Part shown: positions 2,659-60,227 of the stretch, piece by piece
How the letters are laid out: each line of letters begins with the position of its first letter
How positions within the stretch are numbered: position 1 is the first letter of the stretch
Assembly: GCA_037893245.1 (NCBI GenBank)
Contig: JBAIAA010000446.1
Coordinates: forward strand, 992,001-1,056,000
Direction of reading: 5' to 3'
From: Crossaster papposus
Taxonomy: Eukaryota > Echinodermata > Asteroidea > Velatida > Solasteridae
DNA: 64,000 nt
Program-made: the position numbers and the translations under genes
The notes under the pieces: generated by a model
Databases searched by the model: none
What the model was told of the DNA's origin: nothing
What the model saw: only the letters and a program-made list of their open reading frames with translations

Positions 2659-2982
2659 TAGAACATCCAAAAAAATATAGTATGTCCATGTATGCATACG
2701 TAGTGGTTAACCCCCACCCCCTCCCCCCCCCCAGTTTCAAGCATGTAAGTATGTACAGTACATGTATGTAAAATGTACATGTACATTTTACATGTACATG
2801 TACATTTTACATGTACATGTACATGTAAAATATACATGTTATGTAAAATATACATGTACATTGTACATGTACATTATACATTGTACATGTTACATGTTAC
2901 ATGTTACATGTACTGTACATACTTACATGCTTGAAACTGAAGTGTTGAATCAACATTATAAGTGTGTGGTCAGTGACTATAC

Positions 2983-3245
2983 TGTAACGCCCGTGCCGGT
3001 TGGGCGGTAGAGGGCGCTGGAGCGATTCCACGGTGGTGGGATCGCCCCGGAAACCCGCCTTGGATTGCGCAAGCGCCGAACTGGTTCTGACCAGTTCTGG
3101 TACCGCGTGATTGTGTGAGCCTGAAGTCCATGTTTGGTTGGCAAGAGATCACAATAAACGGCAGAGAATCACCGGAAATAAAGGAACACTTGCTTCAGGA
3201 GTCTTTCTTGTGTGTGTAGTCGACCCCAGAGAAATCTACGTTACA
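2983..3245 (+). repeat. 5' LTR
   Basis: 263 bp beginning TGTAACGCCC and ending CTACGTTACA, with the short inverted TGTAACG/CGTTACA termini usual for LTRs. AATAAA-type signals occur in its last 120 bp. It appears identical to 20431-20693. Confidence 0.9.
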
Positions 3246-3265
3246 TTGGTGGCAGCGGTGGGATA
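3246..3265 (+). promoter_or_regulatory. Putative primer-binding site
   Basis: TTGGTGGCAGCGGTGGGAT immediately follows the left LTR. The TGG start fits pairing with a tRNA 3' CCA end, as expected for LTR elements. The tRNA identity was not determined. Confidence 0.65.
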
Positions 3266-3686
3266 CAGAAGGACGGGAAAAGACCAGGTGAAGTGTTCAT
3301 GTTTTCTGGAAACCACGATAACACGGCAGCCAACTCGCCCCACGGCGAGAGGGCAGGCCGGGGCGTGGGCCCGGGGAGCGGGGACCAGTCCGGGAGGCTT
3401 TCAGGCACTCCGTGCATGACGCCAGGGGAACTCTAGGGAGGTTATGGGGACTTGGGAGTCTGGAGTTTCCTGGGGGAGGAGTTGGAGAAGGATAGCGGGG
3501 AATTTCGGGACATGCGCCAATGGCTGGGGGCTTCAGTGCGTCCACTCCGATTTGGAGAGAGGGCGCCCTTCTCCATATTTGTCCGGGTCCGCTACCAGGT
3601 CTGTCGGGGGGCCGCCCCATGCTGTAGACGGCGGCGCAGCAGACGGATGGTTCCACGCGGAACAATCCAAAGCTGTGCCCGTGGAT
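3246..3686 (+). other. LTR-element interior, left part
   Basis: GC-rich leader-like sequence with no recognised protein domain. Its end (about 3590-3686) contains a segment, around CCCATGCTGTAGACGGCGGC, that occurs again at about 19630-19720. The LTR-element interior therefore carries an internal direct repeat. The DNA transposon inserted at the end of the first copy. Confidence 0.7.
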
Positions 3687-3696
3687 CCCAGGTAGC

Positions 3697-4757
3697 AAGC
3701 CCATATGGGATTCATATGGGTCCCACATGGGCCAAGATATGGGCCCCACATGGGCAGACCCATATGGGGCCCATAACATTTTGCACCCAAGACCCCCCAT
3801 ATGGGACCCATATGGGCCAGCTCGGATGTCTCATATGGGTCCCATATGGGTAGCATGTGGGGCCCATATGGGCCGAAATATGGGTCCCGTATGGGAGGAC
3901 CCATATGGGCCCCCTAAAATTCCGCATGTATGGGCCCCACATGGGCGGACCCATATGGGCCCCCTAACGTTTTGCACCCAAGACGCATATGGGACCCATA
4001 TGGGCCAGCCCGGGAGGTCTTATACGGGTCCCATATGGGTAGCACGTGGGGCCCATATGGGCCGAGATATGAGTCCCGTATGAGACCCAGGTGGTTCAGC
4101 TGCACATGGGAAGAATGTGGGCTATCCCACATGGGCAAAATATGGGATTAATCTGGGGCCCACGTGGGCCAGCGCAGTATGGGCAGAATATGGGCTATCC
4201 CATAAGGGCATTATTGTGGGGTTCATCTGGGGCCCAGGTGGGCCAAATGTACATGGGAAGAATGTGGGCTATCCCATATGGGCAAAATATGGGATTAATC
4301 TGGGGCCCACGTGGGCCAGCGCAGTATGGGCAGAATATGGGCTATCCCATAAGGGCATTATTGTGGGGTTCATCTGGGGCCCAGGTGGGCCAAATGTACA
4401 TGGGAAGAATGTGGGCTATCCCATATGGGCTAAATATGGGATTAATCTGGGCCCCACGTGGGCCAGCAGTATGGGCAGAATATGGGCTATCCCATATGGG
4501 CATTATTGTGGGGTTCATCTGGGGCCCAGGTGGGCCAAATGTACATGGGAAGAATGTGGGCTATCCCATATGGGCAAAATATGGGATTAATCTGGGCCCC
4601 ACATGGGCCAGCAGTATGGGCAGAATATGGGCTATCCCATAAGGGCATTAATGTGGGGTTCATCTGGGGCCCAGGTGGGCCAAATGTACATGGGAAGAAT
4701 GTGGGCTATCCCATATGGGCAAAATATGGGATTAATCTGGGCCCCAACGTGGGCCAG
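3697..4757. repeat. Left subterminal CCCATATGGG array
   Basis: The first part (to about 4090) is packed with CCCATATGGG, GGGCCCATATGGG and CCCACATGGGC palindromes in repeats of about 240 bp. The second part consists of about 4.5 copies of a 145-147-bp unit containing GGGCCAAATGTACATGGG and GGGCTATCCCAT. The open frames across it exist in several phases and reflect the repeat, not coding. Confidence 0.85.
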
Positions 4758-6218
4758 CAGTATCTAGCTTGTATGATGGTGCCTGTGCTTCAATGATTAG
4801 AATATAAAAGGGACACAAATTTTTCAGGAATATTATTTCAAAAATTTGATAAAATATTTGAAAAAATTTCAAAAGGCAAAAAACTTCCGAAATTGTCTGT
4901 GTTGCTAGTGTAATGCTGACTAACATCCAACTCACTTATATGGGAACACATGAGCAAATGTACATTTACATTTTGTTATAGGACATAAAATCAACTCATT
5001 CACATGTATTTCAATGTATACCATGACCAAAAAGTTAATGCTTGTTTGATGATTTTAATTTTCTTTGAGTTTGGACAACGTCCCTAAATTATAAAGACTA
5101 CATACAATCATGAACATTTATGTCAGGGATGCCAACTTGCTAGAATGGAAACAAATGAAGTAAACAATGAAATATTCAGGGAAGGCCATTAATTTCATAC
5201 TGAACCCAGGAGGCAACTACCACAGCACTACCAAGGAGGCCAAATGAAATATATCTTAAAAATGCAGTGAACTAAATAAATAGCAGTCGGTAGAAAAATT
5301 AATGTGAAAGTCTCTCGGATCGTTTGGCTTTCCATTGACGTGTATAAAACAATTAACACTAGTACTATAGTACACATGTGTGAACATGTATGTTGTTTAG
5401 TCAGTCATGAACTACATATACAATACAACATATAAATGGACTATATTAAAATATAAGTTTTAGTTTTTACAAAGCAACTTTTTTATGGCAGGAAATTCAA
5501 ATTTGCCACTGCTGAGTACCGTGACCGTGATCTGATTCAGTGAATAGTTTATGCAGCAAACACAGACCCAACAACCAGATTCAAGTATGAAATCAATTAA
5601 TTTGACTTCTTTTTAGGTTGCCTACTCAATGTGAATGGATTCTCTTCCCTTTATGCAATATGTTATGATTGTTAGGGTCAATTATGTTCGTGTACTGTGC
5701 AAATTCTCACCTGCCTCATGTCTGTTTTTAATATAAGCCATCCATCTAAAACAGCTAGTGCCAAGGAAATATAAAATTGGCACAAATCCAAAAGACCTTA
5801 TCACATGTATTACTATTGTACAGGGATTATTTTTTTAAATATATGTACTAAAATCATCCGTGAATTTTTACCAGAACATCATCTACAATAATGAAAAATA
5901 AAACTTTAAATGAAAAATGTGTACAAAAATGTCCCTATGAAAAATGTCCCTATCAAAGACGGGGTACCCGTCACATTTAAAAAATATAATATTGGAAATA
6001 CATGAAGACAGATTTCGAGGATAAAGGAAACAATATGTAAAGGTGAAACTGCAAAAGTTCACTCTGTGGCAAACCACTATATGTACTGTGCCACGTGTCA
6101 AACAAATGTGTCCTACTTTTAATCCTAAATAGGCCTAACTCTATTGTTTACCAATGGAATTAAGCCGAAATTTCACGTTATGTAAACAAGGCATTACATA
6201 TTTTTATAGTGTGCATTT
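4758..6218. other. AT-rich transposon interior, no gene seen
   Basis: AT-rich sequence between the left array and the 3' end of the DUF4806-type gene. I see no exon, repeat or domain that I can support. Confidence 0.5.
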
Positions 6219-6370
6219 CATCAGCTTTGTGCAAGAGGGTGAGACTTAAGCACCATATTAAAAAATACTCACTTGTATCAACATTGGAGGAAGTCAACAG
6301 TTGCAGAATCTGAAATTGAGTATTTTTTAAGTATGGCATTTAAATCTCACCCTCTTGCACAATGCTGATG
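6219..6370. repeat. Short inverted-repeat element
   Basis: Arms of about 55 bp, starting CATCAGCTTTGTGCAAGAGG and ending in its near reverse complement (GCACAATGCTGATG). Roughly 45 bp separates the arms. No clear target duplication is visible. It is probably a MITE-like hairpin inserted downstream of the DUF4806-type gene. Confidence 0.65.
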
Positions 6371-6815
6371 AATCTTGCTCCATACAATTTGTCAATAATT
6401 AATATTTGTAAATACCCAAGACAGTTTAACCATTCCTATTGATCGAGAGCCTGTCTTATACTGTTAAGTACATGGCTAGAGAGGATGTGTCAAAAAAGTG
6501 AAGTAAATTGTTGACCAGAAACATTGGTAGAAGGGTGTTTGTTAAAACATGAGTTAAAATCGGGTTTTTTTGACAAGGAAAATTATTTTGTAAAACTCGT
6601 TTTGACATGTTGACCTAAAGGTATTTATGAATGGGTATAAAGATGTGCTTGGCCGGTATTAAATAAGTATGTTTAAAATTGGCTGGGGCCTTGGACGCAG
6701 AAAGTGTCCCTTGCCTTCGGCTCGGGCCATTATCCACATCCAAGCTCCTAGCCGGTTTAAAACGTACCTGTTTAAAACCGGCCAAGCACATATATTTATT
6801 CCCCTAATGAATTAC

Positions 6816-9800
6816 TTAATTACTCAGATCCATTGCAGTTGGGTCATGAGCCTGGTTGTCCCTTTCTTCATCTGTGTTGTCGTCGGCATGTTCTGTCAAC
6901 CTTCTCTTACTTCTCCCCCCTTTCAAATCCCTTGCATTATAGAGGTAGGATGTGATTGCATTCTTGACCTCGTCCTGGGTGGCAGCCTTGGCCTTTCCAT
7001 TTCTTCTAACAGCCCCTGAAAGTGCAAACATTGTATAAGTATTGAGTATCAGCCTGAAAACAGGCCTTTTAAACTGAAATCCATCTTTATGCCATTGTGA
7101 CTTTCCTGATCCAGGAATCATTCAATTGGGGACAGGAATGAATATACCCGTCAATAGACCTAAGACATCAACGTCAACACTTTGTTAATTTACTTGTGTG
7201 CTTTCCTACACTGGGCACTTGCCCCCACCTTGCTCCCAGAGGAAAGTGCCCATGTAAACAAAGTGTGAAGTCATTGTATCTTAAAGGTAGAATACATCAT
7301 TTGCAGATATCGAAAATATTTACTACCGAATTATTAAGAAATATCTTACTAATTTGAAAGTAAATAATGATTCTAGGCATCCAGCAAAATGATTGCGCTA
7401 GATACCCTATAATTATTTCGAAAAATTTAATTTTATCAAGACAAATTTGCGATCGCCGGACGGCGATCCCAAAAAAACAAAGATAACATAAGAATAACTG
7501 CTCGACGCCGGTTGAAAACAAACGCTATTTTTCGTGCTTTTCCCGGCATCCATGATTGTAAAACTTCGGACAGGTCAGTTAAACGATATTTAGTATAAAA
7601 TACAACCCCCCAAATTTACTCATTCGTGATAATTCAAGCAATTACCACTGGTGTATCCTACCTTTAAGGTCTGTCCTATGCAAGATATACACCTAAAAGC
7701 TAAAACCCTAATTTTTGTAGGATGCTAAAATAAAATATTTGAAGAAACTGTTTGGAACTGTTTGGGGACAATGTAATTTCTATTTTTGAAAAAAAACTTT
7801 TAAAAATGCATTTTTTGATAACTGTTGCAATTGTCACAAATTACTAAGAATGGTGAAACATCTGGCATCTGATCAGATGCTACTGTTAGCTAAAGCCCAG
7901 ATTCTGGAGTGTCTAAAGGTATGGAACTGACAGGCCTCATGTGGGAATTGGAACAGCAAGTTCAGGTTGGTGCAGGAAATCTAAAAACACACCAAGGGGG
8001 CCCTTATGTCTGTTGTAATGCTTTAGATGTCACATTTGTATGTTGATTGTTTTCAAATGAACCGAGAACTTCTCACTGACCAAAGCATTTTTGTGTGTGT
8101 ACTCTGCATGGACTCTATTGTCAGGTTATTGAAATCATTTTCAATAGGATTCAAAAAGGGTCGGGCCATATAGTGAATATTGTGTTTTAATACAACAAAT
8201 AATGCGGAATAATGTTTTATTATTATATACTTACGAAGTATGACTTTATTAATCTTTAGAGACTTGAATTCTCTTTTCCCTTTGGCCCCGGTGTAATTAT
8301 ACTGACGTGCCACTTCCGGTGTCAGGATGTTAGACATAACACACTTGGTGGTGCTAGTTACGTCTTTGCCACCAAGTACAGCAAGCCTTGATACCTTTAA
8401 GAAAAAGGACAGAATCACAGTTGTCAGTGAACTATGTACATGTACCTATAGTTTCGTTGCATATTGACAGTAATATTATGTCTAAAATTAATTATTCCAG
8501 GGAATGAGTCCATGTAAGTGTTTATATGTTACAACTTAAAGCAAGAATTAAGAACATTTAAACCAAGAACGGCATATCAGATTCAAACCCATTCATTTGG
8601 AAGCGGGATAGTTATCGTGGTTTTGAAATATACTGCAGTGCACAGCCTGCACATGAAGCCTGCCATAGGACTTGCATCTTCCTTACCAATTGTTTGGCAA
8701 ACTCTTCGTCGTCTAGTTTCACCTCCAATGCCTGTAGATCGTCAGTAGTTGTAACGGGCAGCACTAATCCTAGGTTTGTGTCCAAGGGTTCATCTATCAT
8801 AGTATCAGCTCTCCTTGTACATAGATCATTGAGAAGCGAGGTGTTGTGGTCCACTCTCTTTCTCAGTTCTTTAACCTCCAAGGATAACTCTGTAAGCAGT
8901 TTTATTACTGTCACCTCAAAACCTGAAAGAAGATCACAAAGACAATTTCGAAGATTATTAAAGACTGCAAACAATTCCGACATCCATACATGTAGGGACA
9001 TTATTATGCTAAAGAATTTTTTGAAATGCCAAGTCTACAATGCAAAGTCCAGAAATCGATAGACCGTTAACCCCAGAATTAGATCCTCATGAGTCATCAT
9101 TTACTATCGACTATTTTAAGCTGCCGATATCAAGTATGTAAATAAAATATGCTTACTCTGAAGTGCTATAGTTCTATTTATTTTACTGAATATTTTCTTA
9201 CCGACCACTTTCCACTTTGGGTATAACAGACCTTTTTTGGAAGTTTATGAAGAATCAGAGACTTGTCAATATGGTTTGAATCACGTAGAGTTGTATACAC
9301 TTATTATATACCACTTTGAAGCAGTCCAGTTCCACTCATCCTGCGCGTCTGTTGGCTGTGATGAACAAGGTCTCCAAGTTACCTCAAAAAATGTCAATAC
9401 CTCAATTAAAAGTCATACCTGTATTGGTGCCAGTGGTATTGCTGGCTGTGCGGGATGTAGATGCCACATGTTGGCTGCGTTGTGGAAATGCAGGTACATG
9501 CGGCACCTTTGCCACCTTTGCCTTCTGTTTCTTTGCACGGTCTTCAGGATTTTCCTCTTCTGATGATGATGTAATTTGCTGATACCGAGGTGGGATCCTG
9601 AAAGAAAAGCTGGAATGACAAATTCTTGTGCAGACAAGAAACCAAACTGACATGTGGCATGCATAGAGCTGAATGGCAGGTCAATGTCAGTTCACTTGCT
9701 TGTTGTAGTGAATCTAGTCATAGAGAGACTGTCCTTATACAGAGAAGGTAGCACTTGAAAGCATTACTAAAAGTGAAATTACCGCAGATTGATTTCATAG

Positions 9801-10504
9801 CTACAGCTACGTCATCAGATGAATTGGCTGTAGCTACGAAAGCTTACACTATAATTATTAATTTTAGAAAAAATTATTTCACTACCTTCTCAATGTATCT
9901 AGCAAACAATATAGTTACCGAGACTGGCGTTTTTTTGCTTCTCCATCATCTTCCTCTGTGTCTAGACATGACGTGTCCTGGGCCTTTCTCTCTTTCTCCA
10001 AGATTCCCTCCCAATTATCTGAAATTCAAATCAAAGTTATTTGGCCTTGCCAACCACATGTACATATTTTAGTGGATTTTTAATTGAACTGACCATACGT
10101 TCACCCCAACCAGGGAATATCAGCAATTTTGACTAGAGCAAAGAGAAAAGCTGCCATATATGGCTTTCATTTTTACAAAAATTACCACCATAAACTTTTC
10201 ATACGAATAAAATATTTAAATTCTGAAATAGGTACTTACTGGATGAGGCCAAGAATCGGACAGAGAGATGGTGGAACCATGTAGTCTTGTCTACTGACGC
10301 TTGTTCCTTAGCCATCTTTCGGACTCCCTTGGAGGATGAACGGTCAGGCCACCAACATGAATAGGTAATACTTCCATCCTTCCCTTTTCCAGAGGACATC
10401 CAGGAAGTGGAAACAACTGCAATGCCATCGGAGAATTCCACCACTGCATATTTCTTTTCCAACGGATTGGAATTTTCCTTCCTGAAGTCATGAAAGACGA
10501 ACAC
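6816..10504 (-). CDS. DUF4806-type transposon protein, six exons
   Basis: Exons, in order, are about 10504-10240 (5' limit uncertain), 10018-9919, 9597-9419, 8922-8687, 8394-8235 and 7015-6816. Every junction is a GT/AG pair, all phases agree, and the product is about 380 residues. The N-terminal exon reads KKYAVVEFSDG...VVSTSWM...WWPD, the pattern I know from the start of DUF4806-type proteins. A Ser/Glu/Lys-rich linker follows. The last three exons carry LPVTTTDDLQALEVKL, LAVLGGKDV, ARQYNYTGAKGKREF and AVRRNGKAKAAT, which fit the DUF4806 core in order. No biochemical function is established as far as I know. Sharing a transposon with a transposase suggests an accessory DNA-binding or regulatory role (inference). 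A non-ATG start and an acceptor-like site at 10482-10484 suggest a missing 5' exon. A MITE sits in the last intron. Confidence 0.75.
7281..7667. mobile_element. MITE with TTAA target site, in last intron
   Basis: TTAA at both ends encloses a 379-bp core. Its termini are AGGTAGAATACATCATTTGC and the near-inverse GTGTATCCTACCT. There is no coding capacity. A sequence resembling its right end occurs near 57827-57870. It lies in the intron between exons 8394-8235 and 7015-6816. Confidence 0.7.
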
Positions 10505-10587
10505 GAAACTATTTTCATCTCGTGAATTTTGGAATCGCCATTAACATGTGTAAAACCAAGGGTGGCCTGACATTCTAGATGTACTGT

Positions 10588-12732
10588 TCAAGAATGTAAT
10601 AAAGGAGCAGCCACTTGTATCCGACTGTCATTTTCTGTGTCTTCTTTGAATAGAAGAATGTACTTCCTCGTGATTGCAGATACTTTGTCAACACTCAGTG
10701 ACCTACTCAATCTGGACACTTTGTAAATACCAAGCACAGTTGAATCCACAGGGTACTCATAAAAAGGATCCAAGGAAAGAAATTTCTGGAACACCACATA
10801 ATGAACTCCCCCTTGCAGAATAAAGTTTCTTGCGAGACCAATGGACTCATTCACAAGGATACAGTTGTCCCCATTCTTTGTTCTAAAAATGAAGTCTTGC
10901 CCAGGAGGACAGTATTTTTGGAACTGTTTACACAACTGCATGTCCCGAGGCAGGGGCCCATCCACATGTTGCTTCTGAAAGACATCACACACAGGATAAG
11001 CCAAAGGGGCCTTGTCTTCAGAATTTCCCTCAGACAGTCTCTTCACCACCTGTTGAAGAGGTAAAACAGGTGATCTCAGCATTCCTTTCAACCTTCCGAG
11101 AAAATTTTCAAACACGAAAGAAGAAACCTCATCCAGTGGACCATACAGTCGCACAACATCTGCTAAATGCACCACACCGTGCACATTGTACGACACCCAT
11201 TTTTTGCCGTACAGCTCACTAAAATGTGGAACAAACAATTTCAACAACTCTTCAGCATAATCTGCATACTCAGAACACAGGCTGGGATTTAATAGAATAG
11301 ACACACTGACAGAAAGAAGGAGAAAATTTGTGTACATGTTGTCAGGTAAAATTTTGTGCAGAACAACGGGTCCAGTGTAGAGAAGAAATTGTCTGAATTC
11401 TGTTGCCTTCCAACGATCCATCTCTATTAATGACCTCGGCTTTCGTGCAAATTCCACTGGTACTTGACTTTTTAGCGCCAACATACCTTTTGATATTGCA
11501 TCAATATTGCGCCAACCAAGCCTTGTCCTCAGTGGACCTTTCATCCACAACTTGAGTAGTTTCCGCACAACTCCAAGACAAATTAAGTGCATGTAATCAA
11601 GTGGAAACTGGCTCACCATCCCCATCCCCATCCCAACCGTGGATAATGCCGACGGCCCATTGTGATGTTCTTCATCCTCCATTGTGGCAAAAGACATGTC
11701 AGTGCGTAATGGAGCATTAACATCAGGAAAAGTCATCCTTCTGTCCTCATTGAGGTACACGCCACGCTGAGAACATTTATCACAACCAGAGTATCCGGTG
11801 TGCCCCTTAACATTTTTCACAAAGGCACGTGCTGGGGTGTCACACACACATGCTGCAATCTCAATATTGTACTGGGAACCACCAAGAGAAACACCTCGAA
11901 TCTTCAACGAGGTCACTTCGTCCACAAAATCTTTGAAGTACTCTGTAGCAGGTTTGGGTTTACTATTACCACAAAACAAACCAATGACGAATGGTTTCCT
12001 GCTTTTCAAACCCATAACAAGTCCCAAAATAGGCAAAAACTGGACAGATGAGGATTTAAATAATGGCAGGCCGTCCACATTTATTTGCACTTTTAAACAG
12101 TCACCAATTTGTTGCATGTCCCTGCATTGCTCAACTGATTTTTTCAACCCGGACAATAGTCCAAAATGATAATAGGAGCCACCTGCGATTTCTTTCACCT
12201 CAACATTTGAAACAGTCCTCAGCAATGTACGTGGGTCCTTGGGGAGTTCTGGGTGTTCATTTCTCAGCATGTGAAGTAGATCGCGAAGAGCCGAATGGGA
12301 AATTTTGTGGCCAACTGCCCAGTGGGCCAACCGATCAGACATTTGCGGCAATTCAAGATCAGAAGTAATGGAAGAATCTGATTCAGGATTTTTATCTCCA
12401 TCCGTCATTTCAGATGTGTCTGATACTGATAGGCCATCTGTATCTGAATCTAGAGATCCATCACTGCTAACTGCATCTGGTCTTTCATCTGCATCTGCAT
12501 CATCCGATTCTGAACCGGCACTAAAGGAGTGATGATTTGTACAGGTATCAAGACCTGGATTAACATCATGATCATCTGTCACGGTGTCTGTGGGATTGGG
12601 AGTAGGTTCAGTGTAGTTACATGTATGTCCTGCACATACCAACGGTGCAAGCTGACCAGTTTCATTAAGTTTACTAATATTCTCTAAATGAGTCTGAACT
12701 TCTGCCTGAAGTCTTCTTCGCTTTGTCTGCAC
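10588..12732 (-). CDS. Tnp2-like (EnSpm/CACTA-related) transposase
   Basis: Single large exon of 714 codons, ending at 10588. Residues 45-130 are acidic and serine-rich. The RNase-H-like core shows INVDGLPLFKSS (Asp220), VCDTPARAFV (Asp298), a CDKC zinc-knuckle-like pair (317-320), LDYMHLICLGVVRKLL (Asp379, His382) and GPLDEVSSFVFENFLGRLKG (Glu542). These are hallmarks of the animal Tnp2-like transposases often left uncharacterised in marine invertebrates. Which acidic residues are catalytic is inference. The frame opens with GTG next to an acceptor-like TAGGTGCAG, so a 5' exon is expected. A candidate ATG lies at 12815. The protein would cut and rejoin the transposon ends in the nucleus. The reading frame is intact, so activity may be recent. 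Confidence 0.85.
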   Translation of the reverse strand: MQTKRRRLQAEVQTHLENISKLNETGQLAPLVCAGHTCNYTEPTPNPTDTVTDDHDVNPGLDTCTNHHSFSAGSESDDADADERPDAVSSDGSLDSDTDGLSVSDTSEMTDGDKNPESDSSITSDLELPQMSDRLAHWAVGHKISHSALRDLLHMLRNEHPELPKDPRTLLRTVSNVEVKEIAGGSYYHFGLLSGLKKSVEQCRDMQQIGDCLKVQINVDGLPLFKSSSVQFLPILGLVMGLKSRKPFVIGLFCGNSKPKPATEYFKDFVDEVTSLKIRGVSLGGSQYNIEIAACVCDTPARAFVKNVKGHTGYSGCDKCSQRGVYLNEDRRMTFPDVNAPLRTDMSFATMEDEEHHNGPSALSTVGMGMGMVSQFPLDYMHLICLGVVRKLLKLWMKGPLRTRLGWRNIDAISKGMLALKSQVPVEFARKPRSLIEMDRWKATEFRQFLLYTGPVVLHKILPDNMYTNFLLLSVSVSILLNPSLCSEYADYAEELLKLFVPHFSELYGKKWVSYNVHGVVHLADVVRLYGPLDEVSSFVFENFLGRLKGMLRSPVLPLQQVVKRLSEGNSEDKAPLAYPVCDVFQKQHVDGPLPRDMQLCKQFQKYCPPGQDFIFRTKNGDNCILVNESIGLARNFILQGGVHYVVFQKFLSLDPFYEYPVDSTVLGIYKVSRLSRSLSVDKVSAITRKYILLFKEDTENDSRIQVAAPLLHS

Positions 12733-12783
12733 CTAGACATTGTGTACGCCAAAATTTAATTTACTTTCTTTGTAATACATTGT

Positions 12784-12815
12784 ACATACTGTGAACGACT
12801 GCTCGTTTCTGCCAT
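12784..12815 (-). other. Candidate first exon of the transposase gene
   Basis: ATG at 12815 begins MAETSSRSQ. A GTATGT donor-like sequence follows at about 12789-12784, although that donor leaves the wrong phase. A second GT four bases further on would restore the frame to the main exon. The context is suggestive but the junction is unproven. This exon could also supply the missing start of the DUF4806-type gene by alternative splicing. Confidence 0.3.
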
Positions 12816-13794
12816 CTTGCTTCGGACAACTACAAGTACGTATACGTAGACCTGGAAAAAGAGAGAAACAAATGCATGCTGTACTGGTGTGCATGTGTAA
12901 AGGAGTCAGTTTTCACTTGAAAGTATTCCTTTCTATTTTTAAATTTGTGAAGAAGGCCCCTAAATTTCTCGACCCCTTAATATCTTGATGCTTGTTTATG
13001 CCACCTATGACTTGATGTTGTGTATGTAACCCCTGACCCGGTAACTTGTCTTTAGAGTAATTCGACCCCCTCCCTAGAACAATAGTCCCCCTGATAGAAG
13101 CCATGTGCTTTGCCTTTTTGCCTCCCAAGGGCCTTAGTTCACAGACCAGCAGAGTGGCCTCAGTTATATCTCAATGATTTTACAGACCCAATCTGGTTAA
13201 AGTTTAATTCTGCCTAGAAGTTTGATCTGATTTATTATTTAGTTTCATCTACATTTTTAAAGTGATCCGCTATTATGGTGCTAGCTGTTTTGGTTTTGTT
13301 TCCTCTATTTGTTTTACTTTGGTTCCCTCCCCTTAATTCTCTTTTGATTTTTTTCTGATTTGTTTGATTTCTTGCAAATTGGTTTGTTCCTTAGTTTCTT
13401 TCGCACCCCTTCGATTGTTTTCAGAGCCATTTACATTTGTTTAAGATATTCACATTTTATTTTCATTCTTGGTTGACAAACAAGTTTCGTTTTTTTCTTG
13501 GAATTTACTATTTAGAAAATAAATCACTGTTGAGAGCAAGTTTTGTTTCTGTCCCAGCTATTTAAAATAAATGTGCTGACTTTTGTTTGAACCAGGTCGC
13601 CGTTTTACATGCATGCATGAATTAAGTCAAGCAAATCCACTGAAAGTAACAGGAATAATTGTACTAGGGGCCTATGTGTGAAGGGGCCTGGGATGCTGAT
13701 GGGGTAGGGAATCTTAATGGTCTGGGGCTGAGCCTGGGACCAGTGTGCCACCAGTTACAGGCTCTTTAGCTCTAGGTGTTTAGTTTAATGTGCC
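12816..13794. other. Upstream region of transposase gene
   Basis: No gene recognised. This stretch should hold the promoter of the minus-strand transposase gene. No TATA box or motif was clear enough to call. Confidence 0.35.
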
Positions 13795-14669
13795 TGTGTA
13801 AAAGAGCAGAAATCAGTTAGTATTAATTAGATTAGCCGCCAATTCAAGAACAAATTGCTTTTTTATAAGAATACATACACCCCTCTTCCCCTGTTGTAAA
13901 TTTAGTAGTGTGTCCCCCTGGTACAATCTCCCCAGTAACAGATTAATTTGACCCTGAGACAATGGGCCCTTTGATTTTAGGCCATGTGCTGCATCAGACC
14001 TCAAGGCAGACAACAGGCTGACAGACTGAGAGCATAGATATACCACAGTTCAATAGCTCTCCACTTTCCAAACATCCACTCTGAGTTTAAATCTGCCTTT
14101 GAAAGTTTTGCCTGCTATTTATTTCGGTAAGTCTAAGCCCCTTTGTTGTCCTCATTTTCTTTCTTAATTATATTGTATTAATTATATGTTTTAATTTGTA
14201 TTCGTTCCAAATTAACTTTCAATATAAATTTAAAGTCACTTTGGAACAAATACAATTTATAAAACATGTTAATACAATATAATTAATTAAGAAAATGAGA
14301 ACAACAAAGGGGCTTAGACTTTATACTGAAATAAATAGCAGGCAAAACTTTCAAAGGCAGATTTAAACTCGGAGTGGATGTTTGGGAAGTGGAGAGCTAT
14401 TGAACTGTGGTATATCCATGCTCTCGGTCTGCCAGCCTGTTGTCTGCCTTGAGGTCTGATGCAGCACATGGCCTAAAATCAAAGGGCCCATTGTCTCAGC
14501 ATAGTCTCAGGGTCAAATTAATCTGTTACTGGGGAGATTGTACCAGGGGGACACACTACTACATTTACAAAAGGGGAAGAGGCCCATGTATTCTTATAAA
14601 AATGCAACTTTTTCTTGGATTGGCAGCTATTTAATACCATACTAACTAATTTCTGCTCCTTTACACTTG
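13795..14669. mobile_element. Foldback (long inverted repeat) element
   Basis: Two arms of about 410 bp are near-perfect reverse complements around a centre near 14220. The left arm starts GTGTAAAAGAGCAGAAAT and the right arm ends with its inverse. Shared internal phrases include GGCCATGTGCTGCATCAGAC and CAAAGGGGCTTAGACTT. The spacer is only tens of bases. There is no coding capacity. The structure fits a foldback or long-TIR MITE. Small indels between the arms show modest age. Confidence 0.85.
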
Positions 14670-16865
14670 CACCTCTAAATGTCAAGCATTCAAACTAACA
14701 AAAATTAACTACCCTATAAAAACCACCAGGAAAGTTATTTATTTTAAACATTCTGAAACTATATACTCTAGTATTAATTACCATATGCCAAAGAATCAAG
14801 AAATCAAGAAATAAATACACACTCCAGATGAGATTAAATGGTCGGGGTAACCATGATCAGTAACTCCATGAAATGAACATTTTTGTGAAACAACTGACAT
14901 TGACCTGTTGACAATAAAGATGTAAAAACTAAAGTTCAAAATTCCTGGTGCATGTTTAGAGACCTTCCAGTCCACTACTACTTCGTACAGTAACAGTTAT
15001 GACAGTCCCAAAATTTAACAACACTAGGCCTAAATCATGTCATGTCTTTTTTAGTATTTAAGATTGATAAGATTAAGAGTTTAAGAGTTATCCAAGAACT
15101 TCCATTGGTATATGATTTGTCATTCAAAAGAAATTCAAGTGAAAATGTAGCCCATTTCATACGAACGTACTGCAGAATATTGTCGAATTACGAAAGTCCA
15201 GAAATATGAATGGAGCATGGCTTCATGCACAGTGCCATGGTACATGTTTACTGTAGCCAACATCATATCTTTTTTACAGCCAAATTTCCCGGCGGACTAG
15301 TCAGAAAAGGAACATTCTTCAAGCCAAAAATAAATAAATTATAAACCAAGGCAGTATAAGTGGCACTGGCAGTGGCAGTGAACTAAATAGTCTAGGCCGG
15401 CAAAAGCCATGGCTATCATCACTCAGGCTGAGTATTTCAACCTGCAACTAGTAATACCACAAATAGAGGAACATGTCTTACGACTTACCTGATGAGAGGG
15501 AAACAGGGCGATTGACCAAGGATGAATACAAACAAATGTCTTGGTACACACAGTACAGGTACTGAGGTAGAACTATAGACTACTAAAAGTCAATTGCTAA
15601 TGCTAGAAGAACACACCAAAAGGACAGTCACACTTGTGGAATGCACTTTGGTAATGGCATCACGGACGGCTGGCTGGCGACGGCTGCATTATAATATGCG
15701 CTGCCTGGGCCTAGGCGGTAGGCCTTGGCATCATCAACGTGCAGTTCGTGCCAGAAAATTCCAGCCATGGTAGGTGATATCATGAACTACATGTACTTAT
15801 AGTTTTAAAAGTTGCACTGCAGTTGGTGGTTTGTATGTAGCACTGTTATTCCAGTGATGTGAATAATTCATTTCTGAATTAACTTTACTTAGTTTTCAAT
15901 AATAGAGTTAAACATCTCAACTTTTAAAATCGTAACAATTATCTGATCTCTGGGAAGTTTGTGGGTGTGAAGGTCGAGATAGCCGGCCCCACTTTGTCAC
16001 TCCACATGAAGCATCTTGGTTTTATTTTAACACACTGATTTGGAAATAAGTTATGCCCGTTTACTCGTTAGCATCTCAATGCTCCTACCATGGAGCTGCA
16101 CTTCTACATTGTACTTTGCTATTTTTTTACAGGATGTACACAGCTATAGTCTTGCATTTCAACATGTTTAATGAGGTGTACGTTATGGAATTTTCGTTTT
16201 GTGGAATTTATGAGAAGTTATTGCACAAGTTTATCCCATATGTAACTGGTGAAATATTTCAATGATATTTGTCAGCAATCTTTAATCTTTATTTAAGTGA
16301 TAAACCGTATGTTAGTGTTTTTAAAAACTTTACATTTTCCTGTCGACAATTGAAGATAACTTGTTGACATATTTTGGATCAATTTTATTTTAAAGTATAA
16401 CTCGATATTTTCTTTGTATTTTTATGTACATTGTACATGTACATGAACACCTACCATATGAACCACTGTATAAGAATCTTTCCCTTGGCCCTCACAGGGT
16501 CAACCACATCCTCTGCTAAAGTAATCACCATTATGACCATACCCACTGCCCTAACTCATATTCATTAGGTTTTATGGTTACTCTTGTGTATTGCCTCTTA
16601 TAATCCCTTGATAGTTGACCAGGAATGTGAGACACAAGGCCCACACGGCCCACAGGTCCTGTGGTCAAATGGTTCAGTCTTGAAGTAACCAATGACAAGA
16701 AAGCACATTAAAAGTCTTCTTGTTTTCTACAGCGCTGGCTGCACACAGCTGCCATGCAGCCTGATCATGAAAGAATAAAAACATGAATTCCATCTCAAGA
16801 CTTCAAGAGCCCGTTTCCATTTGTCACACATATCAACACCATAATGTGACCGCACATTCAGCCTA
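14670..16865. other. Transposon interior, no gene seen
   Basis: AT-rich and mostly unique. The only longish frame (16053-16265, plus, 70 codons) has no recognisable domain or splice context. No gene or repeat can be supported. Confidence 0.5.
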
Positions 16866-19566
16866 CATGGGATGCCCAGATTTAACTATGTCATACCCAA
16901 ATGGGCAAGCCCATATCCTGGCCACATGGGCTTGCCCAACTTTATCCATACCCACATGGGCTTGCCCAGGTTTACCCCCATATGATACAAAGGGAAAATA
17001 CATATTCCACCCACATGGGCTTGCCCAGGTTTATCCTATTATGATACCCACATGGGAAAATACATATTATGCCCACATGGGCTCTCCCAGGTTTATCCCA
17101 TATGACACCCACATGGGCAAGCCCATATGCTGCCCACATGGGCTTGCCCATGTTTTCCCCATATGACACCCACATGGGCAAGCCCATATGCTGCCCACTT
17201 GGCCTTGCCCAGGTTTATCCCATATGATACCCACATGGGCAAATACACGTTCTTCCCACATGGGCTTCCCCATGTTTATCCCATATGATACCCACATGGG
17301 CAAATACATATTCTGACCACATGGGTTCTCCCAGGTTTATCCCATATGACACCCTCATGGGCAAGCCCATATGCTGCCCACATGGGCTTGCCCAGGTTTA
17401 TCCCATATGATACCCACATGGGCAAATACATATTCTGCCCACATGGGCTCTCCCATGTTTATCCCATATGATACCCACATGGGTAAGCCCATATCCAACC
17501 CACATGGGCTTGCCCAGGTTTTCCCCATATGACACCCACATGGACAAGCCCATATGCTGCCCACATGGGCTTGCCCAGGTTTATCCCATATAATACCCAC
17601 ATGGGCAAATACATTATTCTGCCCACATGGGCTCTCCCAGGTTTATCCCATATGACACCCTTATGAGCAAGCCCATATGCTGCCCACATGGGCTTGCCCA
17701 TGTTTTCCCCATATGACACCCACATGGGCAAGCCCATATGCTGCCCACATGGCCTTGCCCAGGTTTATCCCATATGATACCCACATGGGCAAATACACGT
17801 TCTTCCCACATGGGCTTCCCCATGTTTATCCCATATGATACCCACATGGGCAAATACATATTCTGACCACATGGGCTCTCCCAGGTTTATCCCATATGAC
17901 ACCCTCATGGGCAAGCCCATATATGCTGCCCACATGGGCTTGCCCAGGTTTATCCCATATGACACCCACATGGGCAAGCCCATATGCTGCCCACATGGCC
18001 TTGCCCAGGTTTATCCCATATGATACCCACATGGGCAAATACACGTTCTTCCCACATGGGCTTCCCCATGTTTATCCCATATGATACCCACATGGGCAAA
18101 TACATATTCTGACCACATGGGCTCTCCCAGGTTTATCCCATATGACACCCTCATGGGCAAGCCCATATATGCTGCCCACATGGGCTTGCCCAGGTTTATC
18201 CCATATGATACCCACATGGGCAAATACATATTCTTCCCACATGGGCTTTCCCAGGTTTATCACATATGATACCCACATGGGCAAATACATATTCTGCCCA
18301 CATGGACTCTCCCATGTTTATCCCATATGATACCCACATGGGTAAGCCCATATCCAACCCACATGGGCTTGCTCAGGTTTTCCCCATGTGACACCCACAT
18401 GGACAAGCCCATATGCTGCCCACATGGGCTTGCCCAGGTTTATCCCATACGATACCCACATGGGCAAATACACATTCTTCCCACGTGGGCTTCTCCATGT
18501 TTATCCCATATGATACCCACATGGGCAAATACATATTCTGCCCACATGGGCTCTCCCAGGTTTATCCCATATGACACCCTCATGGGCAAGCCCATATGCT
18601 GCCCACATGGGTTTGCCCAGGTTTATCCCATATGATACCCACATGGGCAAATACATATTCTTCCCACATGGGCTCTCCCAGGTTTATCCCATATGATACC
18701 CACATGGGCAAGCCCATATCCAACCCACATGGGCTTGCCCAGGTTTATCCCATATGATACCCACATGGGCAAATACATATTCTTCCCACATGGGCTCTCC
18801 CAGGTTTATCCCATATGATACCCACATGGGCAAGCCCATATCCAACCCACATGGGCTTGCCCAGGTTTATCCCATATGACACCCTCATGGGCAAGCCCAT
18901 ATGCTGCCCACATGGGCTTGCCCAGGTTTATCCCATATGATACCCACATGGGCAAATACACATTCTTCCCACATGGGCTTCCCCATGTTTATCCCATATG
19001 ATACCCACATGGGCAAATACATATTATTCCCACATGGGCTCTCCCAGGTTTATCCCATATGACACCCACATGGGCAAGCCCATATCCAACCCACATGGGC
19101 TTGCCCAGGTTTTCCCCATATGACACCCACATGGGCGAGCCCATATGCTGCCCACATGGGCTTGCCCAGGTTTATCCCATATGATACCCACATGGGCAAA
19201 TACATATTCTTCCCACATGGGCTCTCCCAGGTTTATCCCATATGATACCCACATGGGCAAGCCCATATCCAACCCACATGGGCTTGTACAGGTTTATCCC
19301 ATATGACACCCACATGGGCAAGCCCATATCCAACCCACATGGGCTTGTACAGGTTTATCCCATATGACACCCACATGGGCAAGCCCATATCCAACCCACA
19401 TGGGCTTGCCCAGGTTTATCCCATATGACACCCATATGGGCAAGCCCATGAAGAACCCCATGTGGGCTCATCGATATGGGCCCCATATGGGATACATAGG
19501 GGTTACCCCGTGCCCAGATGGCCCAGTTCTCCCCCAGATGGGCCCCATATGGTCTTGCTACCTGGG
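16866..19566. repeat. Right subterminal CCCATATGGG / CCCACATGGGC array
   Basis: About 44 tandem copies of a roughly 61-bp unit built on CCCATATGAYACCCACATGGGC, with alternating variants that create a 122-bp pattern. Variants include GGGCAAATACATATTC and GGGCAAGCCCATATGCTGCC. Core palindromes match those of the left array but the unit differs. The array runs up to the right terminus of the DNA transposon. Frames crossing it are repeat artefacts. Confidence 0.9.
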
Positions 19567-20430
19567 ATGCAGTGGGGGGCGGGGCCTCGTCGAGACATTC
19601 TCTGGATCTTCTGCAGGAATGAAACCGAGTCGGGGGGGCCCGGCCCATGCTGTAGACGGCGGCGCGGCAGACGGCTCGCAACACTCGGAGCGAGCCCGAG
19701 CCGTGCCCGTCGGCGCAGCGGGGGCGGGGCCTCGCCGGGACGCCCACGCTCTCTAAGCCAGTCGCAAGAATCAGTCGCAGTCGCAAGAATCAGTCGCAGT
19801 CGCAAGAATCAGTCGCAGTCGCAAGAGGCAGTCACAGTCGCGGCCACAGGAGCCAGTCGCAGTCGGAGGAGCCAGTCGCAGTCGCAGGAGCCAAGCGCAG
19901 TCGCAGTCGCAGTCGCAAGAGCCAGTCGCAGTCGCAGGCACCAGATACAGGAGCCAGTCGCAGTCGCAGGAGCCAGTCGCTGTCGCGGGAGCCAGCCGCA
20001 GACGCAGTCGCAGGAACCACAGTCGCAGTCGCAAGAGCCAGCCGCAGTCGAAGGCACCAGTCGCAGTCAGAGGAGCCAGTCGCAGTTACATTTGCAGTCA
20101 AGTCTTAACATTAGAGGGGTGTGCCGTGCGTAGCCGTGGTGTGCCACCGTGCGTAGCCGTGGTGTGCCACCGTGCGTAGCCGTGGTGTGCCACCGTGCGT
20201 AGTCGTGGTGGGCCAGGGGTGTGTCCTGGGCCAGGGGCTTACCCCAATTTGTTGTAATGAAAATTGTTGTAATGAAAATTGTTGTAATGTAAATTGTTGT
20301 AATGTAAATTGTTGGAATGTAAATTGTTGTGTAATGTTGGCGTTATGCGTTTTCCGGGGCGGTTGGCCGGGGTGCGGCAGCAGCGCCCATGGTCTTGTTT
20401 GGGGGCAAACAAGGTCTTCGTGGGGGGCTG
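19567..20430 (+). other. LTR-element interior, right part
   Basis: After a GC-rich segment with a second copy of the left-interior sequence (about 19630-19740), there are three local repeats. These are a CAGTCG-type hexamer array (about 19758-20100), GTGCCACCGTGCGTAGCCGTG repeats (about 20115-20205) and a TTGTTGTAATG repeat (about 20250-20335). A G-rich tract (20420-20430) precedes the 3' LTR and may be the polypurine tract. The hexamer array reads as Arg/Ser/Gln-rich peptide, but nothing supports a gene. Confidence 0.7.
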
Positions 20431-20693
20431 TGTAACGCCCGTGCCGGTTGGGCGGTAGAGGGCGCTGGAGCGATTCCACGGTGGTGGGATCGCCCCGGAA
20501 ACCCGCCTTGGATTGCGCAAGCGCCGAACTGGTTCTGACCAGTTCTGGTACCGCGTGATTGTGTGAGCCTGAAGTCCATGTTTGGTTGGCAAGAGATCAC
20601 AATAAACGGCAGAGAATCACCGGAAATAAAGGAACACTTGCTTCAGGAGTCTTTCTTGTGTGTGTAGTCGACCCCAGAGAAATCTACGTTACA
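20431..20693 (+). repeat. 3' LTR
   Basis: 263 bp, identical by eye to 2983-3245. The flanking atac at 20694-20697 completes the target duplication. Confidence 0.9.
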
Positions 20694-21056
20694 ATACTCT
20701 TTAAAATTTGGATATTCAAACTGATAAATTTAACACTCGCGTGTTGAGCTGTATTATGCATGTAATCCAACATTTTAAAGAGTAGTCACTGACCGCACGC
20801 TTTTAATGTTGATTTTTCAACACTTGTTGGGGTACATGTTTGTGCACATTAAAGAGTGTCATGAATAAAGGGGTTGGGTGTTGATTTCTTGTGGGAAAAC
20901 TTAAATTCACACGTGTGTAGCAGATTCAGACAACACATACATGCATAATTTGTCATTATGTATAAATTAAATACTGTTGTTTTTCTTTCTCGTTAGCGAG
21001 CTGACAGCCGAAGACATTGCGTGATCCCTATAAGTTTTAAGTTCATGGTCATGTAT

Positions 21057-24000
21057 TTAGGGAAGACGAGCACGACGAGCCAGTTTGATGAGTGGTTCAT
21101 CGTCATCTGTAGAGTCTACAGTTGAAGATGAATCTCCAGACGAATCTGCATCCTCAGAATCTTCCGAATCGGTCTCTGCTGGTTCAGGCGACTTAGGAGG
21201 TGGACGTGGGCAAGTGATGTCCCGTGTCGAGGCACTGCAAAACTCTCGGATGTGCTTGTGCAAATACTCCATGCGGGCAAAGGACAAACCTTGGATTAGC
21301 AGAGGCTCAGGCAAGACCCTCGGTGGCAGGTTAGATGCATCCAAGAGAAGTTGGAACTCCTGTTCAACACTCTCTGCATGCAGCTTGGAGAACACCTTTC
21401 CAGGGTGATCATGACTAAACCTGAAGTGAATAAAATGAGGGAAAAATCATAGGATCAAAAATTGTGTTGGCATTTTTGGAGATTGACCTTCATAATAATT
21501 ATCTTATCCTTCAAAATATTGAAACAAACAAGTTTTTATACATGTGATGGTGTATCACAAGACTACAATAATAAGTAAACAATAAATCTTACCTCATGTG
21601 GTGGCAAGACTTGATCTTCGGCATAGGTCGAAAATATGGGGACAGGAACTCCTGCCAGTTGTACGTTGGGACGATGCCATGGCCCTTCTCTGTGCCAACA
21701 ACTCGTGGCACATTTACCCCCTTCACCGAGCTTGACCGTACCACTTCTAAGTCAGCCAAGCAGCTGACCATGGTTCTGCGGTACCTCTGCTTTACTAAGC
21801 CAAAACACCAATCAGGGGCAAATTTGGTGTGTCCGGCAATCATAAAGTTCACGGTGATGGACTTATGTAACCTTGTCATTGCTCTCCAGGCAAAATACCA
21901 CATTACGTATTTGTTTTTATTTTGCCCTCCACAGTTGTCACAGTGTAAATGTACCTGTTCTTCCCCGAGACCAAAGTTCTCAAAGAAGTCGTGCAAATAG
22001 CTGATGACGGCATTTGACCCCTTGCCAACCGAAACACCTTCGTCTATTAGGTAGTTGGCCTGTTGAGGGATTGCTTCACAGCACACTCCAAAGATCCCAC
22101 ACTTTCTAGGACAGAGAAAGTACATGGGCCCAGGCTGAAGGGGGTCACTTGGATAGTGGACTTGCTGGGCAAAGTCAAAAGCATAATGCATTTGACCAGG
22201 TCTGCTGCAGGCATCATTGCGGCCGAGCTTCTCCCCTTCGTTGACTGCTCTCTTAGCCTCCTCTACCATGTTGCGGTACAACTCCCTCTCCATGTAGACC
22301 AGACGCAGATGCTCCTCTTGGCATTGAAGGCGTTGGAGTTTCTGGTCCTCTGGCAAATTGGCGCTGCGGTACACCCCGTTGTTATTTTGTTGACATTGCC
22401 AACACAAGTCACTCATTGGTTTTGTTGTTAAGATGAAGGGTGTGTATCTTCTCCACATCTTTGTGAAGGTCGATCGCCTCGCAACCCTGTATTCTGGATC
22501 TCCTGTGAAAATAAAGCAATTTTTTTTTTCATTAAACAATTTAATGAATTATTAACATCAGACCTTTAAAATCGCGGCGTGAATAACATCAATTACATGT
22601 ACAGGGTATGTTTCTCAATTTTTTATTTTTTTTATTAACCCTAACTCCCTAGGGTGTGTGCAAAATCATATTGATTTCGGAGGATTTTAAGGACTGTAGG
22701 GTTTAAAAAATTAAATAAAACAAATATCAATGCAAATAACAACAACAAAATTGTTTACTCGTGTATGCAAGAGGTCTATAAAACCCCAAACAGAAATAAA
22801 CAACATTCTACCTGCTACAAGACGGTCTTCGTTCGTTGACTCGAGCTGCGATTTGTACTGCCGCCATATTATTGATTTATTGTCCCGCGACGGAAGGAGT
22901 CTCACTCGGGGGTCAGAACACTTGACCCCTGGTATGCGACCTGGAATGACCATGCCCTCCCTCTCTGCATAGTTCACGATGAATGTGATGGCTCGGGTGA
23001 CGTCCTTGTCTGTCAATGCTCGTGTGTTATTCCTCCTCCCCCCAGCTCTGGTTTTAATTGGAACAACGCCGTTCTGTTCATAATGCCGAATGATGCTGGA
23101 CAGCTGGTCATTTCCAATACTAAAAATAAAATACAAATCATTATAAATATCAATAAAGCCTGTATTTTACCGTTACAAAGCAGTGAAATAATACAAATCA
23201 CATGCCAAAATTAAGTCGTAAAAAGAACCTCAAGCCCATTTTTATTTTGAACCCCAATAGTACTTGAATCTAAAATTTAAAACAAAACATTACTCACTAT
23301 AAACACTACTGTTACTTTTGGATTACTAAGTCATTATTGTTTTCATGGATATAACAATCTTAATTTCATGCGGAAGAACGCAAATATAAATATTTTGGTT
23401 GCACCTCAACAAGAACAAAAGTGATTATATTTATTGTAAAAGCATGCTTAGCCTTAATTGTTTTTCTTAATTGAACATTATACTTACTTGTGCATGAAAA
23501 GAAATGATTTGCGGCAGACATGTGTTCCGTCGACGAGGTACGTCACTCGGCTTCTCGTTCTGTCTGTTTGACGTGCCCGTTTAGAGCATAGATTTTTTAT
23601 ATTTTTTTTTATTGTTGAGCTGATTCGTCCCATTATGAACATCTTTCTCTCTCGCTTCGTCATCTCTGCATCAGACATCTGTGCACGCAGCTGCAAGATG
23701 TAGGCTGGCTCAAACTGGTTGGTACAAGGATCTTTGTTTGGGGGGCATGTACACTTGCTAAAGTTATTAATTTTGGCCAACTCTTCGTCATTGTCTGGAG
23801 AGGTCCAGTCATCGGTACCTTCAATATCGATGATTTGCTGGGCAAGGTCAGGTACCAGGCCAACAGCACCGTCTGCTGCACCGTCTATCTCCTCTTCAAC
23901 TTCAGATTCCGATGAAGGAAAATCATCGATGTCCATGGGTTCCGGCTCAGACAAATCTGAGTACAGGTCATCATTCACATCATCATCATCATCTGAAGAA

Positions 24001-32900: not shown

Positions 32901-33693
32901 ACACGTGTCTCAACGGTCGACAGGTCTCGACACATCAAAGTGTCTCATTACGTCAACCCACGTCTTGACACGTCGACCCACGTCGAGACACGCCGACCGT
33001 AGGGTGAGTAGGTGTAGGGAAGGGTGGGTAGGTGTAGGGAAGGGTGAGTAGGTGTAGGAAAGGGTGAGTAGGTGTAGGGAAGGGTGAGTAGGTGTAGGGA
33101 AGTGTGAGTAGGGTGAGACAGGCCGACCGTTGAGACGACGCCGACCGTTGAGACACGCCGACCGTTGAGGTACGCTGACCGTTGAGACACGCCGACCGTT
33201 GAGACACGCCGACCGTTGAGACATGTGTCTCAACGGTCGACAGGTCTCGACACATCAAAGTGTCTCATTACGTCAACCCACGTCGACCCACGTCTTGACA
33301 CGTCGACCCACGTCGAGACACGCCGACCGTAGGGTGAGTAGGTGTAGGGAAGGGTGGGTAGGTGTAGGGAAGGGTGGGTAGGTGTAGGAAAGGGTGAGTA
33401 GGTGTAGGGTAGGGTGAGTAGGTGTAGGGAAGGGTGAGACACGTCGACCCACGTTGAGACACATCGACCCACGTTGAGACACGTTGACCCACGTTGAGAC
33501 ACGCCGACCCACGTTGAGACACGCCGACCCACGTTGAGACACGCCGACCCACGTTGAGACACGCCGACCCACGTTGAGACACGCCGACCCACGTTGAGAC
33601 ACGCTGACCCACGTTGAGACACGCCGACCCACGTTGAGACAGGCCGACCGTTGAGACAGGCCGACCGTTGAGACACGCCGACTGTTGAGACAC
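26936..33693. repeat. Three-level satellite (17/21 bp, ~350 bp, ~2 kb)
   Basis: The lowest level has two motifs: a 17-bp unit (GTTGAGACACGCCGACC) and a 21-bp unit (GTGAGTAGGTGTAGGGAAGGG). Runs of both, plus a GTCGACCCACGTC segment and a CACGTG-centred palindrome, form a unit of about 320-354 bp. The palindrome occurs 14 times, near 27543, 27873, 28194, 28547, 29549, 29881, 30231, 30562, 31535, 31886, 32200, 32549, 32900 and 33219. A third level is set by a unique phrase (TCAGAATTCATTGCTCACAA) near 26953, 29025 and 31041, giving units of about 2.02-2.07 kb. The end (33440-33640) changes to an 18-bp variant. Minus-strand frames through it are artefacts. Confidence 0.9.
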
Positions 33694-60225: not shown

Positions 60226-60227
60226 TC

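Follow-up and report, generated by a model that had tools for sequence, protein, structure and literature searches.

The plant transposons En/Spm (maize) and TgmR* (soybean) combine a transposase with a second gene and with subterminal repeats that are bound by protein or thought to be so (PMC4219821), a layout resembled by a 15,880-bp element at positions 3687-19566 of a 64,000-nucleotide stretch of DNA from the sea star Crossaster papposus (GenBank assembly GCA_037893245.1, contig JBAIAA010000446.1, positions 992,001 to 1,056,000, forward strand; hereafter the window). The transposase of En/Spm is TNPD, its subterminal repeats are recognized by TNPA, and neither protein is dispensable (PMC2613891). 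Unlike the element studied here, En/Spm and TgmR* have CACTA ends, and TgmR* has a 3-bp target duplication (PMC4219821). Soybean Tgmt* (20.5 kb) is alike in its two functions, its 13-bp terminal repeats and its unequal, palindrome-forming subterminal repeats, which number 4 within 159 bp on one side and 24 within 732 bp on the other (PMC2613891). It differs in being a plant element with CACTA ends, a 3-bp duplication, another repeat motif, and arrays about four to seven times shorter.

These plant elements belong with the CMCT clade (CACTA/EnSpm-Mirage-Chapaev-Transib), which is defined by a D-D-E, C(2)C, H(3)H transposase signature and has target duplications of 2 to 5 bp and, in most cases, 5'-CA..TG-3' termini (PMC12730594). 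Among its other members, ENS1_Cis of Ciona and the CMC-NA MITEs (miniature inverted-repeat transposable elements) come from an animal and from wasp viruses; they are CACTA-type sequences and have a 2-bp duplication, but their termini are CAC..GTG, and the portions of their description available to us make no mention of kilobase palindrome arrays (PMC6004678). Plavaka, ESTA, and the fungal EnSpm elements share the clade, and PlavakaA the 2-bp duplications, but they have TGT..ACA, CATCA..TGATG, or CAC..GTG termini, or TA duplications, and the extra gene described for them encodes a TET/JBP dioxygenase, unlike the second gene described below (PMC12730594).

The C. papposus element looks like a 15.9-kb cut-and-paste DNA transposon that is related to CACTA elements, apparently intact, and recently inserted; both of its genes lie on the minus strand. 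On its sequence features we place it, provisionally, inside the CMCT clade as a variant, separate from the classical CACTA elements. Our reason is that the hallmarks of the latter, CAC(TA) ends and a 3-bp duplication, were looked for and are absent: the outermost bases are CCCAGG..CCTGGG (CCC..GGG type), and the three bases flanking the element differ (GAT vs ATG). Direct and inverted subterminal repeats at both ends, as in classical CACTA/EnSpm elements, are present. The original prediction, made from the letters of the window, had described a giant two-gene transposon with an enlarged En/Spm-type layout and arrays of unequal length. The En/Spm-like layout is supported by the transposase signature, by the subterminal repeats at both ends, and by a second gene with a DNA-binding-type domain. 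The size likewise stands, although “giant” is a relative term, since plant CACTA elements of 20.5 kb (Tgmt*), 17 kb (Tam1), and 13 kb (TgmR*) have been published (PMC2613891, PMC4219821). Similarly, the arrays are unequal, and at a kilobase or more they are longer than the “several hundred nucleotides” reported for CACTA elements (PMC8978399), but inequality itself is already found in Tgmt*. Length, unequal arrays, and two functions are thus known from plants, and a 2-bp duplication from a tunicate CACTA element; in the literature texts available to us, we found no account of an element that joins CCC..GGG ends with a DUF4806 gene and with kilobase palindrome arrays on both sides.

Ends, insertion site, and subterminal arrays

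The terminal sequence CCCAGGTAGCAAG starts at 3687 and its complement stops at 19566, with a single exact copy of each in the window. The matching inverted termini that had been predicted at 13 bp extend to 22 identical positions of 23, covering those 13 bp plus the first 10-bp palindrome (Table 1). When up to three mismatches were allowed, the terminus had 19 matches in the window, 10 of them in the right array; shuffled controls averaged 12.3 matches, and 7 of 100 shuffles reached 19.

A single repeat is interrupted by the transposon, and its joined flanks realign along a second copy of that repeat, which serves as a paralogous empty site. We aligned the joined flanks to the copy from 19629 with none, one, or two AT dinucleotides between them, and obtained scores of 111, 110, and 104, respectively; the version with one AT was also aligned with MAFFT. 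As AT is self-complementary, the dinucleotide found on both sides is either a 2-bp target duplication or, if the terminus is 15 bp long and made no duplication, its outermost two bases. The 2-bp duplication of the original prediction is therefore consistent with the flanking bases but unproven.

Palindromic arrays, predicted to span 1.06 and 2.7 kb, are present just inside both ends. The left array contains 25 copies of the motif CCCRYRYGGG and the right array 68, compared with means of 0.4 (maximum 4) and 0.7 (maximum 3) in 200 dinucleotide shuffles of each array; the rest of the window has none. All 98 of the CCCANNTGGG palindromes in the window likewise fall within the arrays (28 left, 70 right), with the middle bases CA (69), TA (18), CG (4), GG (4), AA (1), TG (1), and GA (1). 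Half-sites are regularly spaced: among 73 intervals between TGGG half-sites on the left, 43 are 11 bp and nine are 14 bp, and among 179 intervals between CCCA half-sites on the right, 87 are 11 bp, 51 are 14 bp, and 26 are 25 bp. Each 61-bp unit of the right array contains a pair of complete palindromes plus as many as three lone half-sites, the final one being altered in 19 of 41 copies.

The two arrays match each other as inverted versions of one unit, at 68-81% identity (10 BLAST rows, E <1e-8) with inserts between some sites. The CCCA half-sites tend to point outward, in 73 of 108 cases on the left and 178 of 257 on the right (binomial p 3e-4 and 6e-10, with the shared ancestry of the units ignored). 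Within the right unit, variable columns (conservation <0.9) make up 1 of 20 palindrome columns vs 13 of the 41 remaining columns (p 0.024 by Fisher test, p 0.007 by column permutation), and when both palindromes were moved through all 61 rotations along the unit, the true position showed the highest conservation. Just inside the right array, a 95-bp segment (16737-16831) matches 39487-39582 on the other strand at 86% and is perhaps a dispersed repeat.

A transposase gene and a DUF4806 gene

The transposase call was confirmed in a 714-codon frame that carries the catalytic signature of the CMCT clade, namely D220, D298, and E542, with C317-x2-C320 as the C(2)C and H518-x3-H522 as the H(3)H motif; we knew the published pattern when we selected these residues by eye, so the match is not a blind test. 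The second D precedes the first C by 19 residues and the last H precedes E by 20, the same distances as in mouse RAG1 (D708-C727 and H942-E962; PMC4914335). A match to DUF4218 overlies the H-H-E stretch at E=3.7e-4 (20.8 bits, under the Pfam cut-off of 27), and Transposase_21 is not listed for this protein by Pfam at E up to 10.

The second gene, for which consistent splicing had been predicted, does assemble into six exons with GT/AG borders and a single open frame of 371 amino acids. Its identity had gone unrecognized: the spliced product encodes DUF4806 (PF16064) at E=3.1e-11 (43.9 bits against a gathering cut-off of 25). The domain is interrupted by an intron, and its two exons, unspliced, each score below the gathering threshold (E=0.0096 and 0.0033); the exon 4/5 junction was picked once the domain was known from each of them, so the higher score on splicing supports the gene model without being independent of it. 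Because the frame contains no Met between the transposase stop and the first acceptor, translation must begin in an upstream exon or at an internal start. A check for a shared leader exon, in the manner of En/Spm, yielded seven ATG-plus-donor candidates (donor score at least 7/9) that fit the frame of gene 2. A leader at 12815-12790, which we had favored by eye, is not among them. An Nrf1 DNA-binding domain was also considered in the first exon, NRF1 being a protein that binds palindromes, and its match was not significant (E=0.1).

DUF4806 has been termed a subtype of the BEN DNA-binding domain, citing Pan et al. 2023 (PMC11075544). The BEN domain of Insensitive (Insv) binds CCAATTGG as a dimer, and its multimers may bridge sites (PMC6317261); NACC1, another BEN protein, binds CATG cores (PMC11472053, PMC7764960), with one molecule per CATG-containing DNA and 10 bp covered (PMC11472053). 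By our own comparison, CCAATTGG and CCCATATGGG share a CCA-NN-TGG geometry, which we treat as a lead. Insensitive is thus alike in its dimer on a CCA-NN-TGG palindrome and in multimers that possibly bridge sites, but it is a host boundary factor outside transposons, and its kinship to DUF4806 comes from the cited literature alone. TNPA is not known to be a DUF4806 protein. No text tying DUF4806 to a transposon was found in the parts of the open literature available, with subscription papers and Repbase outside the search, and for a BEN domain linked with a DNA transposon transposase, only a mention in a reference list was found.

What may bind the arrays

We consider it fairly probable that this is a CACTA-like element in which gene 1 supplies the transposase and gene 2 a DUF4806 protein that acts on both arrays and aids movement. 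The gene 1 DDE transposase would cut at the 23-bp ends and insert the element, probably with a 2-bp duplication. The gene 2 protein, as a BEN-type factor, would bind the CCCANNTGGG palindromes, probably as a dimer, and perhaps also those CCCA half-sites that stand alone, at 11- and 14-bp spacing, in both arrays; it would be expected to recognize CCCACATGGG or CCCATATGGG DNA, with dimer binding expected on CCANNTGG. Many bound copies at both ends would gather the ends for the transposase, and array-bound protein could also silence or insulate the element. Because DUF4806 has been called a BEN subtype and a BEN protein dimer binds CCA-NN-TGG, gene 2 is, by analogy, the best candidate for a TNPA counterpart; that it binds the arrays, and that movement needs this binding, we infer. 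More generally, animal CMCT transposons might use a BEN-type DUF4806 protein as TNPA, co-evolved with kilobase CCA-NN-TGG arrays on an 11/14-bp lattice, such that a long multimeric cluster and not a few molecules gathers the ends; this proposal is tentative, and we rate it as possible but somewhat short of probable.

Gene counts from Hydra speak for the interpretation of the element itself. CMC elements are among the largest DNA-transposon groups in Hydra, and Hydra viridissima and H. vulgaris have 69 and 54 DUF4806 genes and 47 and 13 DUF4218 genes, respectively (PMC7642931). Across seven cnidarian genomes that include these two, the counts are 69, 54, 6, 0, 1, 0, and 0 for DUF4806 and 47, 13, 16, 0, 12, 4, and 5 for DUF4218 (PMC7642931). 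Both are high in H. viridissima, with no one-to-one tracking in the other six genomes.

Several observations weigh against our interpretation. The element is known from one copy, in one 64-kb window, and its CCC..GGG ends depart from the CA..TG termini of most of the CMCT clade. The empty-site scores are alike with and without a 2-bp duplication. In the transposase, the first two D residues are 78 apart, vs 108 in RAG1, and no in-frame Met precedes residue 109; the first exon of gene 2 is provisional. The assignment of DUF4806 to the BEN group comes from one sentence of PMC11075544 that cites Pan et al. 2023, the DUF4806 part of gene 2 matched no BEN chain among solved structures, and both structure predictions were too poor for use (mean pLDDT, the predicted local distance difference test, of 36.9 and 53.6). 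In the arrays, lone half-sites of the right unit are barely more conserved than spacer (0.91 vs 0.87), and the units share ancestry, so that all array statistics rest on non-independent units. Clytia, Morbakka, and Acropora have 16, 12, and 5 DUF4218 genes vs 6, 1, and 0 DUF4806 genes (PMC7642931). Finally, no relatives were found in viral contigs, either of the transposase (whole frame and 260-amino-acid core) or of gene 2 (its first exon and first DUF4806 exon), in scans that were seeded with short exact peptides for both genes and would reveal close relatives only, and the transposase had no match among phages, in collections that contain no animal genomes.

Alternatively, the transposase itself may bind the arrays, leaving gene 2 to regulate the chromatin or expression of the element. 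The first palindrome occupies positions 14-23 of both ends, adjoining the cut site, and CCCAGGT, the first seven bases of the terminus, recurs in the right unit consensus; however, the subterminal binder of En/Spm is TNPA (PMC2613891), and gene 2 has a domain whose described relatives bind palindromic DNA. We regard this explanation as unlikely. A host factor, either a CANNTG binder or an NACC1-type BEN protein on CATG, could instead occupy the arrays and make them an enhancer, insulator, or silencing center. Every CCCANNTGGG contains CANNTG, the E-box targeted by basic helix-loop-helix proteins. In addition, the CA middle of 69 of the 98 palindromes gives ACATG, and NACC1 selects ACATGT. Nevertheless, only 70 of 180 CCCA half-sites in the right array lie within CCCANNTGGG, and the rest are regularly spaced without a palindrome, a regularity that a CANNTG dimer would not need; a host role for the arrays seems to us distinctly unlikely.

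We give slightly less credence again to the arrays being functionless, the product of ordinary satellite amplification within a transposon. Such amplification has a precedent in Chenopodium quinoa, where a CACTA element carries 5,550 bp of satellite array close to one of its ends (PMC8978399), and repetitive reading frames are common elsewhere in the window, but here the motif stands at both ends, inverted and with similar spacing, and the palindromes are more conserved than the rest of the unit. That the element is wrongly delimited, with arrays and genes that do not belong together, is very improbable: there is one copy to judge from and AT does not prove a duplication, but one repeat is interrupted by both ends, and the flanks, once joined, align again with the second copy of that repeat.

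The surrounding retroelement and implications

A retroelement with long terminal repeats (LTRs), missed in the original prediction, holds the transposon. It spans 2979-20697, and with the transposon set aside, its own inner part is about 1.3 kb (439 + 862 bases). The LTRs, identical at 263 of 263 positions, open with TGTAAC and close with GTTACA, with ATAC on both outer sides; the 5' LTR is followed by TGGTGGCAGCGGTGGG, which we take to resemble a primer site. The insertion target of the transposon was therefore either a short, young LTR element or that element's source copy. Identity of the LTRs suggests that the retroelement is recent, and if the transposon jumped later, its insertion is younger still.

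Table 1. Coordinates of features in and around the transposon (window positions)
Feature	Position	Strand	Remarks
5' LTR of the retroelement holding the transposon	2983..3245	+	ATAC at 2979-2982; followed by TGGTGGCAGCGGTGGG
AT at left border	3685..3686		target duplication or outermost terminus
Left terminal inverted repeat	3687..3709	+	22/23 bp identical to right end; includes first CCCATATGGG
Left subterminal array	3700..4763 (about, 1.06 kb)		25 CCCRYRYGGG; ~145-bp units over inner part
Gene 2 exon 6, last coding	6819..7015	-	acceptor chosen among three compatible with an open frame
Gene 2 exon 5	8235..8394	-	DUF4806, second part
Gene 2 exon 4	8687..8922	-	DUF4806, first part
Gene 2 exon 3	9419..9597	-	
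Gene 2 exon 2	9919..10018	-	
Gene 2 first recognized coding exon	10240..10481	-	requires upstream exon or internal start
Transposase reading frame (gene 1)	10591..12732	-	714 codons stop to stop; D220, D298, C317, C320, H518, H522, E542
Right subterminal array	16860..19553 (about, 2.7 kb)		68 CCCRYRYGGG; 61-bp unit, ~41 copies in 16951-19449
Right terminal inverted repeat	19544..19566	-	counterpart of left end
AT at right border	19567..19568		target duplication or outermost terminus
Second copy of interrupted repeat	19629..19760	+	paralogous empty site
3' LTR	20431..20693	+	263/263 identical to 5' LTR; ATAC at 20694-20697

The LTR retroelement also contains a CAGTCG-type minisatellite (19759-20086) and is flanked by an inverted repeat of about 50 bp (82%; 2940-2984 and 20775-20825), so it may itself lie inside an older inverted-repeat element. 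To its left, 1749-2940 consists of repeats rich in ATGTAC and ACATGT palindromes. Within the transposon, an imperfect 883-bp palindrome (13790-14672; 88%, BLAST) looks like a foldback element or an internal duplication, and smaller imperfect palindromes lie at 6217-6372 and 6633-6803. Elsewhere in the window are a minus-strand frame with DUF7869 (21592-22548; E=1e-14), a minus-strand reverse transcriptase frame (37048-38358; RVT_1, E=3e-28), and two regions (26968-33812 and 60199-64000) whose repetitive reading frames suggest long minisatellite arrays and which contain no CCCRYRYGGG. There were no Rfam matches and no tRNA genes, and the terminus-plus-palindrome pattern had no match in contigs of viruses and prokaryotes, a result of little weight for animals.

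An apparently intact element with roughly one hundred palindromes offers a way into the question of why repeated subterminal sites are needed by CACTA-type transposons at all. For DUF4806, which is of unknown function and has expanded in some animals, the element provides a concrete and testable function together with a likely DNA site. If animal CMCT transposons do use a DUF4806 protein as their TNPA, most of the DUF4806 genes in animals with an expanded set, such as Hydra, would belong to transposons, and a common ancestry might link the DUF4806 proteins of transposons to BEN regulators and boundary factors of the host.

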